From an uncultured Collinsella sp. (GTDB lineage: Bacteria > Actinomycetota > Coriobacteriia > Coriobacteriales > Coriobacteriaceae), in contig CASDZW010000013.1 in the NCBI GenBank assembly GCA_949285915.1, forward strand, positions 5,783 to 69,782: DNA of 64,000 bases, written 5' to 3'. Position 1 is the first letter of the stretch; each line of letters begins with the position of its first letter. The notes beneath the pieces are model-generated. The model saw only the letters and a list, made by a program, of their open reading frames with translations, had not been told where the DNA came from and made no database searches. The position numbers and the translations under genes are program-made. This document shows, piece by piece, positions 11,036 through 45,286 of this stretch.

Positions 11036-11069
11036 AGTCAGTGTCCTCTAGAAGTCAGTGTCCTCTACA
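11036..11069 (+). repeat. 17-base direct repeat, two units
   Basis: The 15-mer AGTCAGTGTCCTCTA occurs at 11036 and again at 11053, a tandem duplication of period 17. It lies between the GH13 gene and the hairpin that follows. No function is evident. Confidence 0.8.
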
Positions 11070-11071
11070 GG

Positions 11072-11123
11072 AAACCGAGTTTACCAGCTGCTCAAGCTCG
11101 TTTTGCGCTGGTAAACTCGGTTT
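11072..11123 (+). repeat. Hairpin repeat family A, copy 1 (convergent terminator)
   Basis: Perfect 17-base arms (AAACCGAGTTTACCAGC and its complement) enclose an 18-base loop and are followed by TTTTC, so the structure can end transcription of the GH13 gene and, on the other strand, of the minus-strand gene that ends at 11154. A close relative with arms AAAACCGTGTTTACCAGCT stands at 45.2 kb, so this is a repeated sequence and not only a chance terminator. Confidence 0.75.
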
Positions 11124-11153
11124 TCTTGCATTAAGGGGCCACGGAAACCAAGG

Positions 11154-30342: not shown

Positions 30343-31557
30343 ATGGGACGTTTTACCAACCCGCGTGACCTGTATTTTGGCGAGGGTGCTCGTCATGAGG
30401 TGAAAAACCTCAAAGGCAAGCGTGCCATGATCGTCACCGGCGGCGGCTCCATGCGCCGCGGCGGCTTTTTGCAGGACGTTGAGGCAGACCTTAAAGAGGC
30501 TGGGTTCGAGGTAGAGATTTTTGAGGGCGTCGAGTCCGACCCTTCGGTCGATACCGTGATGCGCGGTGCCAAAGCCATGGAGGCCTTTCAGCCCGATTGG
30601 ATTATCGGCATCGGCGGCGGCAGCCCTATCGATGCCGCTAAGGCGATGTGGCTCTTCTACGAGTACCCGAACGAGACCTTTGAGGAGGCCATCGTCCCGT
30701 TCAGCTTCCCGGAGCTTCGCACCAAGGCCCGCTTCTGCGCCATTGCCTCCACCTCCGGCACGGCGACGGAGGTGACGGCGTTCTCCGTCATCACCGATTA
30801 CGAGAAGGGCATCAAGTACCCGCTCGCCGACTTCAACATCACGCCCGATGTGGCCATCGTCGACCCCGAGCTCACCTACACCATGCCCAAGAAGCTTTGC
30901 GCGCACACCGGCATGGACGCGCTCACCCATGCTATCGAGGCCTACGTCTCCACCGCGGGCTCCATGTTTACCGACGCCAACGCGCTGCATGCTATTCGCG
31001 AGATCGTTGCGTGGTTGCCCAAGTCCTATGAGGGCGATCACGAGGCACGCCAGCACATGCACGAGGCGCAATGTATCGCCGGCATCGCCTTCTCGAGCGG
31101 TCTTTTGGGCATCGTGCACTCCATGGCGCACAAGACCGGCGCCGCCTTTACGGGCGACCACATCATCCACGGTTGCGCCAATGCCATGTACCTCGGCAAG
31201 GTCATTCAGTTCAACGCTAAGGACGCGCGTGCCAAGAGCCGCTATGCCTACATTGCGCGCGAGGTGCTGCACCTCGCCGGCGAGACCGAGGACGAGCTCG
31301 TGGCGTCCCTCGTCCAGTGCATCCGCGACCTCAACGACAAGCTCGACATTCCACAGGGCATCAAGAACTACGGCCCCGGTGGCGTGAAGGCAGACGAGTC
31401 GGTGATTGATTACGCCGAGTTCGAGGAGAAGCGTGCCCGCGTTGCCGTCGACGCCATCGGCGACGCCTGCACCGGCTCCAACCCGCGTCAGCCCACGCCT
31501 GAGGAGATGGAGAAGCTCCTCGAGTGCGTCTACAACGACGTGGACGTGGACTTCTAA
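30343..31557 (+). CDS. Iron-containing alcohol dehydrogenase
   Basis: The 404-residue protein starts with the NAD(P)-binding region (MIVTGGGSMRRGGF, GIGGGSPIDAAKAMW) and continues with ASTSGTATEVTAFSV. Metal ligands are in HTGMDALTHAIEAYVS, SMAHKTGAAF and GDHIIHGCANA, a His/Asp set typical of the family. It should interconvert short aldehydes and alcohols and regenerate NAD(P)+ in fermentation. GGGAGG precedes the ATG. About 20 bases beyond its stop begins a large hairpin repeat that may serve as its terminator. Confidence 0.94.
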   Translation: MGRFTNPRDLYFGEGARHEVKNLKGKRAMIVTGGGSMRRGGFLQDVEADLKEAGFEVEIFEGVESDPSVDTVMRGAKAMEAFQPDWIIGIGGGSPIDAAKAMWLFYEYPNETFEEAIVPFSFPELRTKARFCAIASTSGTATEVTAFSVITDYEKGIKYPLADFNITPDVAIVDPELTYTMPKKLCAHTGMDALTHAIEAYVSTAGSMFTDANALHAIREIVAWLPKSYEGDHEARQHMHEAQCIAGIAFSSGLLGIVHSMAHKTGAAFTGDHIIHGCANAMYLGKVIQFNAKDARAKSRYAYIAREVLHLAGETEDELVASLVQCIRDLNDKLDIPQGIKNYGPGGVKADESVIDYAEFEEKRARVAVDAIGDACTGSNPRQPTPEEMEKLLECVYNDVDVDF

Positions 31558-31578
31558 GCGAGGGTTCGACTCCCACCG

Positions 31579-31662
31579 AGAGGCCCCGGAGGGTTCCCTT
31601 CGAAACGTCCTCGCCGCTTCGCGGCTGCGGAATGTTTCTCAGGGATACCCTCCGGGGCCTCT
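31579..31662 (+). repeat. Hairpin repeat family B, copy 1
   Basis: A perfect 16-base outer arm (AGAGGCCCCGGAGGGT and complement) is followed inward by TCCCT/AGGGA and GAAAC/GTTTC pairings and a core (31602-31638) that includes CCTCGCCGC and GCGGCTGCGGAATG. The same 37-base core, with 3 differences, recurs on the minus strand at 36.3 kb with different arms. A degenerate half copy (GCGGATTGTTTCTCGGGG) follows at 31697. It stands just after the alcohol dehydrogenase gene. Confidence 0.8.
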
Positions 31663-31789
31663 CTGCGTTTCGCTTGCGCTTGGCGAGCGAATTGCAGCGG
31701 ATTGTTTCTCGGGGTCTCTGCTTTCCTGTGTAATCTGCCTCATTTCTGTTACTACTTGTGCTTCGCTATGCGTATGTTCAATGGCGTGC

Positions 31790-31795: not shown

Positions 31796-31803
31796 GACGC
31801 TGC

Positions 31804-32035
31804 TGTTTCAGGGCGGGGTGGAATTCCCCACTGGCGGTAAATCGGTCAGACGGCCGGGCGCGACGGCGCGTGTGCGCTGTGGCGAGCGGGGCAAGATGCC
31901 TTCCGTCTGGGTGTGCGGCAAGGGTGCCGCATGCAGTACCGATGAGCCCGCGAACCCGTCAGGCATTGGGTTGCCTGCGGGCCGATCCGGTGAGATCCCG
32001 GGGCCAACGGTTAGAGTCCGGATGGAAGAGGCAGG
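31804..32035 (+). promoter_or_regulatory. FMN riboswitch (RFN element)
   Basis: The diagnostic blocks are all present: CAGGGCGGGGTGGAATTCC, CCCACTGGCGGTA, GCCCGCGAACCC, GGTGAGATCCCGGGGCC and AACGGTTAGAGTCCGGATG. FMN binding is known to turn off riboflavin synthesis or uptake genes. The 3' side of the closing stem runs into the ribosome binding region of ribU (GGAAGAGGCAGG), so control of translation is likely. The preceding 31558-31803 holds the hairpin repeat and the promoter -10. Confidence 0.96.
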
Positions 32036-32043
32036 TGACTCAT

Positions 32044-36260: not shown

Positions 36261-37415
36261 CTAGCCTCTGCAGGGCCCTGAGGGTTGCCCCGGGAAACAT
36301 TCCGCAGCCGCAACGCGGCGAGGACGTTTCCCGGGGCAACCCTCAGGGCCCAGAATATCCTTGGGATAGCTGTTCAGCACCTCGCAGCCGTCCTCGGTCA
36401 CGATGACGAGGTCCTCGATACGCACGCCGATGTCGCCCGGCAGGTAGATGCCCGGTTCGATGGAAAAGCACATGCCCGGCTGCACGGGCTCGTCGTGCGT
36501 AGCCGAGACATCGCCCGGCTCATGGTCCTGCAGGCCGATCTGGTGCCCCAGACGATGGTTGAAGGCAGGGCCCCAGCCGGCGTCCTCGATGATGCGGCGT
36601 GCGGTAAGATCGATCTCCGCAAACGTGACGCCCGGGCGCACAATGGCCTCGGCCGCCTCGTTGGCGCGGCGCACCGCGTCGTAGACGGCGCGCTGGTGGG
36701 CGGTCGGCTCGGCGGTAAAGAACGTACGGGTCATGTCCGAGCAGTACCAGTCCTGCTTGCAGCCCACGTCAAAGAGCACCATGTCGCCCGCAGCAAGAAC
36801 GGTCTCATCCGGCTCGTGGTGCGGATCGGCGGCATTGGCGCCAAAGCTCACGATGGGGAAGAAGGAGTGGTCACTCGCGCCCAGCCGGCGGTACTCGCCA
36901 AGGAGTCCCTCAGCGATGGATTGCTCGGTCACACCGGGCCTCACCTGCTCGACAAGCCACGCCATAGCTTTGTCGTTCGTTGCGGAGGCGGCTCGCATGA
37001 GCTCGCGCTCGCGCGCGTCTTTGATCGAGCGCGCATCGTCCACGGCGTCGGAGGCAACCACAAAGCCGCTCGCCGCCCCCGCCTGCATAAGCGGCACGAG
37101 CCAGCGCGCTGCAAGCTCCTTGTCCACGCCGAGGGGCTGGTCGCTCGCGCACACGCTGGCGACGAGCGGCACGGGGTTATCGGTGTCCGAGAAGCTCACC
37201 ACCTGCGCCCCGGTTGCGCTCGCGTCGGGGAAGAGGCGATTCACAAAGATGGCGGGCGCGCCCTCAAGCGGCACGTACAGCGCAAAGAAGCGCTCGTAGG
37301 GCTCGGTGTAGTAGCCGCAAAGCCACCAAATGGAGAGCGGGTCGGTAAGAAGAAGCTGACCAAGCCCGCGCGCTCTCAGGTTCTCACGTACGCGGGCGAG
37401 TCTCTCTTCGTTCAT
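36261..37415 (-). CDS. M24 family metallopeptidase (Xaa-Pro dipeptidase-like)
   Basis: An N-terminal creatinase-like domain (1-130) precedes the pita-bread catalytic domain. Its two-metal ligands are visible as D in LFDVGC, D in CSDMTRT, H in HRLGHQIGL, E in SIEPGIY and E in VRIEDLV. The enzyme should cleave Xaa-Pro dipeptides in the cytoplasm. Family members usually end shortly after the PKELI-like block; here it reads NSYPKDIL and then continues for 28 residues encoded by hairpin repeat family B, ending at a stop just beyond it. The native C-terminus has therefore probably been replaced. Confidence 0.92.
   Translation of the reverse strand: MNEERLARVRENLRARGLGQLLLTDPLSIWWLCGYYTEPYERFFALYVPLEGAPAIFVNRLFPDASATGAQVVSFSDTDNPVPLVASVCASDQPLGVDKELAARWLVPLMQAGAASGFVVASDAVDDARSIKDARERELMRAASATNDKAMAWLVEQVRPGVTEQSIAEGLLGEYRRLGASDHSFFPIVSFGANAADPHHEPDETVLAAGDMVLFDVGCKQDWYCSDMTRTFFTAEPTAHQRAVYDAVRRANEAAEAIVRPGVTFAEIDLTARRIIEDAGWGPAFNHRLGHQIGLQDHEPGDVSATHDEPVQPGMCFSIEPGIYLPGDIGVRIEDLVIVTEDGCEVLNSYPKDILGPEGCPGKRPRRVAAAECFPGQPSGPCRG
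36273..36351 (-). repeat. Hairpin repeat family B, copy 2
   Basis: Perfect 26-base arms (from GGGCCCTGAGGGTTGCCCCG to GGGAAAC) enclose a 27-base centre whose minus-strand sequence equals the core of copy 1 except for three bases. The arms differ from those of copy 1 but share GAGGGTT. The element forms the 3' end of the M24 peptidase reading frame. Confidence 0.85.
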
Positions 37416-45230: not shown

Positions 45231-45286
45231 CAAAACCGTGTTTACCAGCTCTCCCGGACTGTGGGCAGCTGGTAAACACGGTTTTG
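45231..45286 (+). repeat. Hairpin repeat family A, copy 2 (argD terminator)
   Basis: Perfect 20-base arms, CAAAACCGTGTTTACCAGCT and its complement, enclose a 16-base loop and are followed by G and an A/T palindrome GGCAAAATTGCC. The arms share AAACCG-GTTTACCAGC with copy 1 at 11.1 kb. A degenerate third arm CAAAACCAAGTTTGCCAGC follows at 45304. Confidence 0.75.

Follow-up and report, generated by a model that had tools for sequence, protein, structure and literature searches.

We report here a real, large, structure-conserved and dispersed family of core-capped hairpins, previously unlisted, two copies of which lie in the stretch of 64,000 nucleotides from an uncultured Collinsella sp. analysed in this work (hereafter, the window). 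The explanation we prefer, to which we give a probability of roughly 55% on the basis of sequence comparison, is that they are dispersed 3'-end hairpins in which a long, gene-specific stem of the intrinsic-terminator type carries a conserved apical cap. On the mRNA strand, the cap consists of GUCCUCG and CUGCGG flanking a short stem-loop, with asymmetric internal loops. We document the position, orientation and covariation of these hairpins, the ordinary terminators that occupy the same sites in relatives, and the spread of the family within and between genomes.

The two hairpins of the window

The original prediction described a 37-base core nearly identical in two inverted copies, and in fact positions 31602-31638 agree with the reverse complement of 36294-36330 at 35 of 37 bases. 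Shuffled sequences give an expectation of 0.13 occurrences of the two-part core per window; the actual number is two. Since the upstream genes lie on the + and - strands, respectively, both copies place the same strand in the mRNA (table 1). The outer arms had been described as perfectly self-complementary in each copy, which holds for copy 2 (26 paired bases per side, 36273-36298 / 36326-36351) but only for the outer pairs of copy 1, where 17 perfect pairs (31578-31594 / 31647-31663) give way to a bulge and then to a small internal loop; the arms of this copy are therefore not perfect throughout. A degenerate half copy proposed at 31697 was abandoned: the core half-site matches there with two mismatches, shuffles yield 1.16 such matches per window, and the sequence is absent beside the corresponding hairpin in close relatives.

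A small deletion removed the usual stop codon of the M24 peptidase gene, so that its reading frame now continues through copy 2 and the hairpin encodes the C-terminal end of the protein (L093 vs. L291 and L292; G004 and G007 compared). Elsewhere in the window, an FMN riboswitch (31800-32037) lies upstream of an ECF-type riboflavin transporter gene, and a second hairpin family is found at 45231-45286 and 11069-11126, with the common stem ACCGxGTTTACCAGC / GCTGGTAAACxCGGTTTT; this is presumably the 'family A' of the original prediction.

Table 1. Positions of the core-capped hairpins and associated genes (window coordinates, except where a locus is named)
Feature	Positions	Strand	Remarks
Copy 1, core-capped hairpin	31578..31663	+	about 20 nt past the iron alcohol dehydrogenase stop codon
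Copy 1, conserved core	31607..31630	+	mRNA strand GTCCTCG-CCGCTTCGCGG-CTGCGG
Copy 2, core-capped hairpin at the M24 peptidase gene 3' end	36273..36351	-	26 perfect arm pairs
Copy 2, conserved core	36302..36325	-	+ strand CCGCAG-CCGCAACGCGG-CGAGGAC; mRNA strand GTCCTCG...CTGCGG
Iron-containing alcohol dehydrogenase gene	30343..31557	+	upstream of copy 1
M24 peptidase gene	36261..37415	-	frame passes through copy 2
Hairpin-bearing queG/purQ gene, L142	1474-2646		core reads N-I-P-Q
Hairpin-bearing queG/purQ gene, L180	659-1726		core reads N-I-P-Q
Hairpin-bearing queG/purQ gene, L187	5267-6334		core reads N-I-P-Q
Hairpin-bearing queG/purQ gene, L158	6370-7317		core reads N-I-P-Q

Core architecture and covariation

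The near-invariant part of the element is CCGCAG-stem-loop-CGAGGAC (in reverse, GTCCTCG...CTGCGG), with a short variable stem-loop inside and long variable arms outside. The unpaired core letters scarcely vary across 94 element clusters, an invariance that is partly by construction, since a cluster entered the set only if neither half had more than one mismatch. The helices on both sides of the core covary in two data sets. In the Collinsella-group alignment (19 sequences), 12 of 19 pairs changed on both sides and the covariation score was 0.338, against at most 0.126 in controls with slid partners. In an alignment of 36 sequences from other phyla the score reached 0.571, against at most 0.136 in slid controls; this alignment leans to the Collinsella-group model by which it was made, although its sequences took no part in building that model. 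Together with the compensated pair changes between orthologous copies described below, these results give good support to the earlier claim that the structure is maintained.

Some copies depart from the common architecture. Those of L123, L124, L131 and L235 have an extended apical stem of about 15-20 bp in which a CAT bulge recurs; the L131 copy, located after a groEL-like gene, has a folding energy of -145 kcal/mol.

Distribution of the family

Searches with the core revealed more copies in the genome and a family larger than first described. BLAST of the own genome returned 12 matches, including copy 1 read on its reverse strand, and further matches were found across the genus. A covariance model (R1) built from 19 Collinsella-group sequences recovered 20 copies in the own genome and from 2 to 25 in each of eight genus relatives, a range among congeners that counts against a terminator function. 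Matches to R1 were present in 40 of the 119 genomes of the class Coriobacteriia, some of the weak ones being false, and in only one of the sampled genomes of the phylum beyond this class. Those in G038, which resemble transposase coding sequence, were discarded as false positives.

The exact 22-base pattern was found, among named genomes, mostly in Collinsella, Enorma and other Coriobacteriia, but also in Peribacteria/Peregrinibacteria, Krumholzibacteriia, UBP16 and Mogibacterium. Nearly all of the matches outside Coriobacteriia fold with long arms of their own (those of L166 are short), and the genomes concerned contain additional copies. In the Krumholzibacteriia, 12 of 58 sampled genomes were positive, with up to 12 copies each. 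A distinct core variant, GCCTCCGCAG...CGAGGACAGCGAG, occurs at two places in one UBP16 genome (L226 and L233). We tentatively suggest that a single conserved nucleic-acid cap, read by a widespread putative factor, may have spread to hairpins at gene ends in four or more bacterial phyla, the tip being kept and the stems rebuilt at each locus.

No Rfam family matches the core-capped hairpins; matches to plant and animal microRNAs fell far below the cut-off and were rejected as generic long-hairpin similarity. No description of the hairpin was found in the literature searched, which did not include the 2017 candidate-RNA survey. Skipping-rope RNA (RF02924), whose role is unclear, is a structured RNA that has been described from several phyla. 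Its covariance model gave no match in the own genome and none in 14 control genomes, so that this comparison is one without a positive control; the other searches did not bring up this RNA either.

Position and orientation relative to genes

Most of the 20 copies of the own genome lie 20-40 nt past a stop codon, with the GTCCTCG strand in the mRNA. Among the Coriobacteriia clusters, as judged from simple codon-usage gene calls, 51 have GTCCTCG on the mRNA strand downstream of a stop codon and only 2 the opposite arrangement; a further 13 lie between convergent genes, and 15 are unclassified or inside called genes. The distance from core to stop codon in this class is 34-71 nt. Several Krumholzibacteriia copies agree in both position and orientation.

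The hairpins resemble rho-independent terminators in being stable, GC-rich and situated just 3' of genes, soon after the stop codon, with free stem sequence and with ordinary terminators at orthologous sites. They differ in the conserved asymmetric cap, the fixed orientation, the longer stem (about 30 bp vs. about 16 in ordinary terminators) and a weaker U-tract. The last point weighs against termination: T makes up about 31% of the eight bases after the hairpin, whereas core-less terminators in these genomes reach 46%; the first base is T in 59% of the cases. In the mechanism that we favor, the hairpin would terminate transcription or protect the 3' end, and the cap would be read by a protein or act on RNA polymerase. 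The stems would be kept paired by selection, together with template switching at the DNA level or conversion of one copy by another, processes that would alter both arms jointly.

A minority of copies fits this scheme poorly. Those in queG, at the start of purQ and upstream of leuC-like genes do not occupy terminator sites, and it is the opposite strand that their mRNA carries. The in-frame queG hairpin was seen in three Peribacteria/Peregrinibacteria genomes, where it precedes the first iron-sulphur motif, within a stretch that reads as an addition of about 27 residues (by eye, relative to the E. coli protein); in two genomes the hairpin is found at the start of purQ (table 1). The leuC-like copies, a minor class, are the second members of inverted pairs between leuA-like and leuC-like genes, names that were assigned from reading translations. 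Inverted core pairs about 130-450 bp apart were seen in several Collinsella-group species (L113, L114, L115, L117, L118 and L120), and those of L115, L117, L118 and L120 lie between leuA-like and leuC-like genes.

Acting strand and possible mobility

The evidence on which strand acts conflicts. At two variable core pairs, the mRNA strand mostly offers G-U or Watson-Crick pairs, whereas the other strand has A-C or C-A. On the other hand, apical loops of the C(GNA)G or C(GNNA)G type occur on the non-mRNA strand in 43 cases vs. 2, and in 14 vs. 0 in a second set, although these counts are not independent events because the copies are related; core-less terminators show no such bias (2 vs. 1). Loops of this type are known to be unusually stable in single-stranded DNA. 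They would be in keeping with folding of the non-mRNA strand, or of single-stranded DNA, and count against the capped-terminator reading. Two purQ copies from candidate-phylum genomes, in which the other strand is in the mRNA, and the Mogibacterium copy have the reverse loop (TTC), suggesting that transcription, and not the strand of the element, may set the direction of the bias.

The loop bias leads to an alternative that we regard as possible, if rather doubtful, in which the family is a mobile single-stranded-DNA hairpin: the CCGCAG...CGAGGAC strand would fold by means of a very stable mini-loop of the C(GNA)G type and an internal loop that is G-A rich, be handled by an enzyme acting on single-stranded DNA, and survive mainly at 3' ends, where it is least harmful. 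A copy 86% identical at an unrelated gene of the own genome, the patchy presence in distant phyla, the in-frame addition to queG and the widely varying copy number all speak for mobility. A carrier, however, was not found. Y1 transposase genes are present in seven of the nine genomes with no core near any of them, and none was found in G005 and G008 despite their many cores (G008 is only 85% complete); a transposase or RAYT link was therefore rejected, and the search for a transposase or recombinase tied to the core, as proposed originally, returned nothing. A viral carrier was likewise discarded, as the 18 and 8 viral contigs matched by two core patterns include none that folds as a long-armed, core-capped hairpin. 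Moreover, neither a target duplication nor a clean empty site was seen at the orthologous sites compared, the orientation relative to transcription is strongly biased, and the opposite-loop copies of purQ and Mogibacterium suggest that the loop bias itself may track the transcript.

REP elements are also dispersed intergenic palindromes, at times found inside genes, but among the GTAG-/CGTC-tagged palindromic repeats the CGTC REP stems are 8-9 bp long with the tag at the end (PMC3733652), whereas the core-capped stems are long and unconserved, with CGTC inside the core instead of at the foot. Neither the conserved short tagged stem nor the associated Y1 tyrosine transposase (RAYT) of the REP system was found. 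The fixed terminal inverted repeats and target duplication of MITEs are also lacking: the arms are not conserved, so the element has no fixed ends, and these differ between copies. Rickettsia palindromic elements are alike in placement, as in-frame palindromes in protein genes, but here only for candidate-phylum genomes; in-frame insertion, as in queG, is not typical of Coriobacteriia copies, and most core-capped copies are intergenic, at 3' ends, with unconserved arms.

Orthologous sites and change of arms

Fourteen gene 3' ends of the own genome were located in the eight relatives, and 60 stretches were read for nine of them. Sites without the core usually hold a terminator hairpin of the ordinary kind, followed by a T-rich tail (e.g., L250, L251, L254, L259, L280, L282, L288 and L289), and some have a long hairpin whose core has decayed (L279 and L284). 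Hairpins orthologous to copy 1 were found in L192, L193, L194 and L195, and at the alcohol dehydrogenase site of G003 and G001 the arms are entirely different between matching flanks. The suggestion that the arms are matched to the target site is not supported by such positions, where agreeing flanks enclose different arms or an ordinary terminator.

Arm changes tend to preserve pairing. Copy 2 differs from its counterpart in G004 by four compensated pair changes, and two Krumholzibacteriia orthologs by five, with no uncompensated change in either case. In L097 of the own genome, compared with L244/L245 of G004/G007, the upstream flank is identical and the outer arms match, but about 10 inner pairs changed together. 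Hairpins are known to arise and persist through template switching (PMC8794818). Joint changes of this kind are consistent with any of three processes, namely selection that preserves pairing, template switching, and conversion of one copy by another.

Template switching could in principle do all the work, if a compact tip stalled replication and one flank were copied onto the other, producing long, perfect, locus-specific arms with no function of their own. Outside the core, more than 98% of arm pairs are Watson-Crick and neither strand shows an excess of G-U; this, and the paired changes seen in orthologs with no intermediates, agree with such a self-growing palindrome. Nevertheless, perfect pairing does not discriminate, because the ordinary terminators of these genomes are almost perfectly paired too, and they hold too few mismatches for the absence of G-U asymmetry on either strand to be informative as a test for RNA selection. 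We consider this explanation improbable, since it leaves both the invariant cap in distant phyla and the position after stop codons unaccounted for. That the copies are simply ordinary intrinsic terminators, whose common core reflects shared ancestry of a few sites or chance, is very improbable and was already disfavored: the copies do occupy terminator positions, but 22 fixed core bases are common to other phyla with independent arms, viral contigs that match the core pattern, used here as a control for chance, yield no hairpin of this kind, and about 20 copies per genome lie at unrelated genes.

Implications

Terminator hairpins are thought to require just stability and a U-tract. If our preferred reading of gene-specific terminator stems bearing a conserved cap is true, a tip that different phyla keep in a single orientation, on stems whose sequence is free to vary, would represent a readable signal at some gene ends. 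The family also provides a clean natural test of joint change in both arms of a hairpin, as well as of the way in which a short structured module can spread when no enzyme for it is recognisable.
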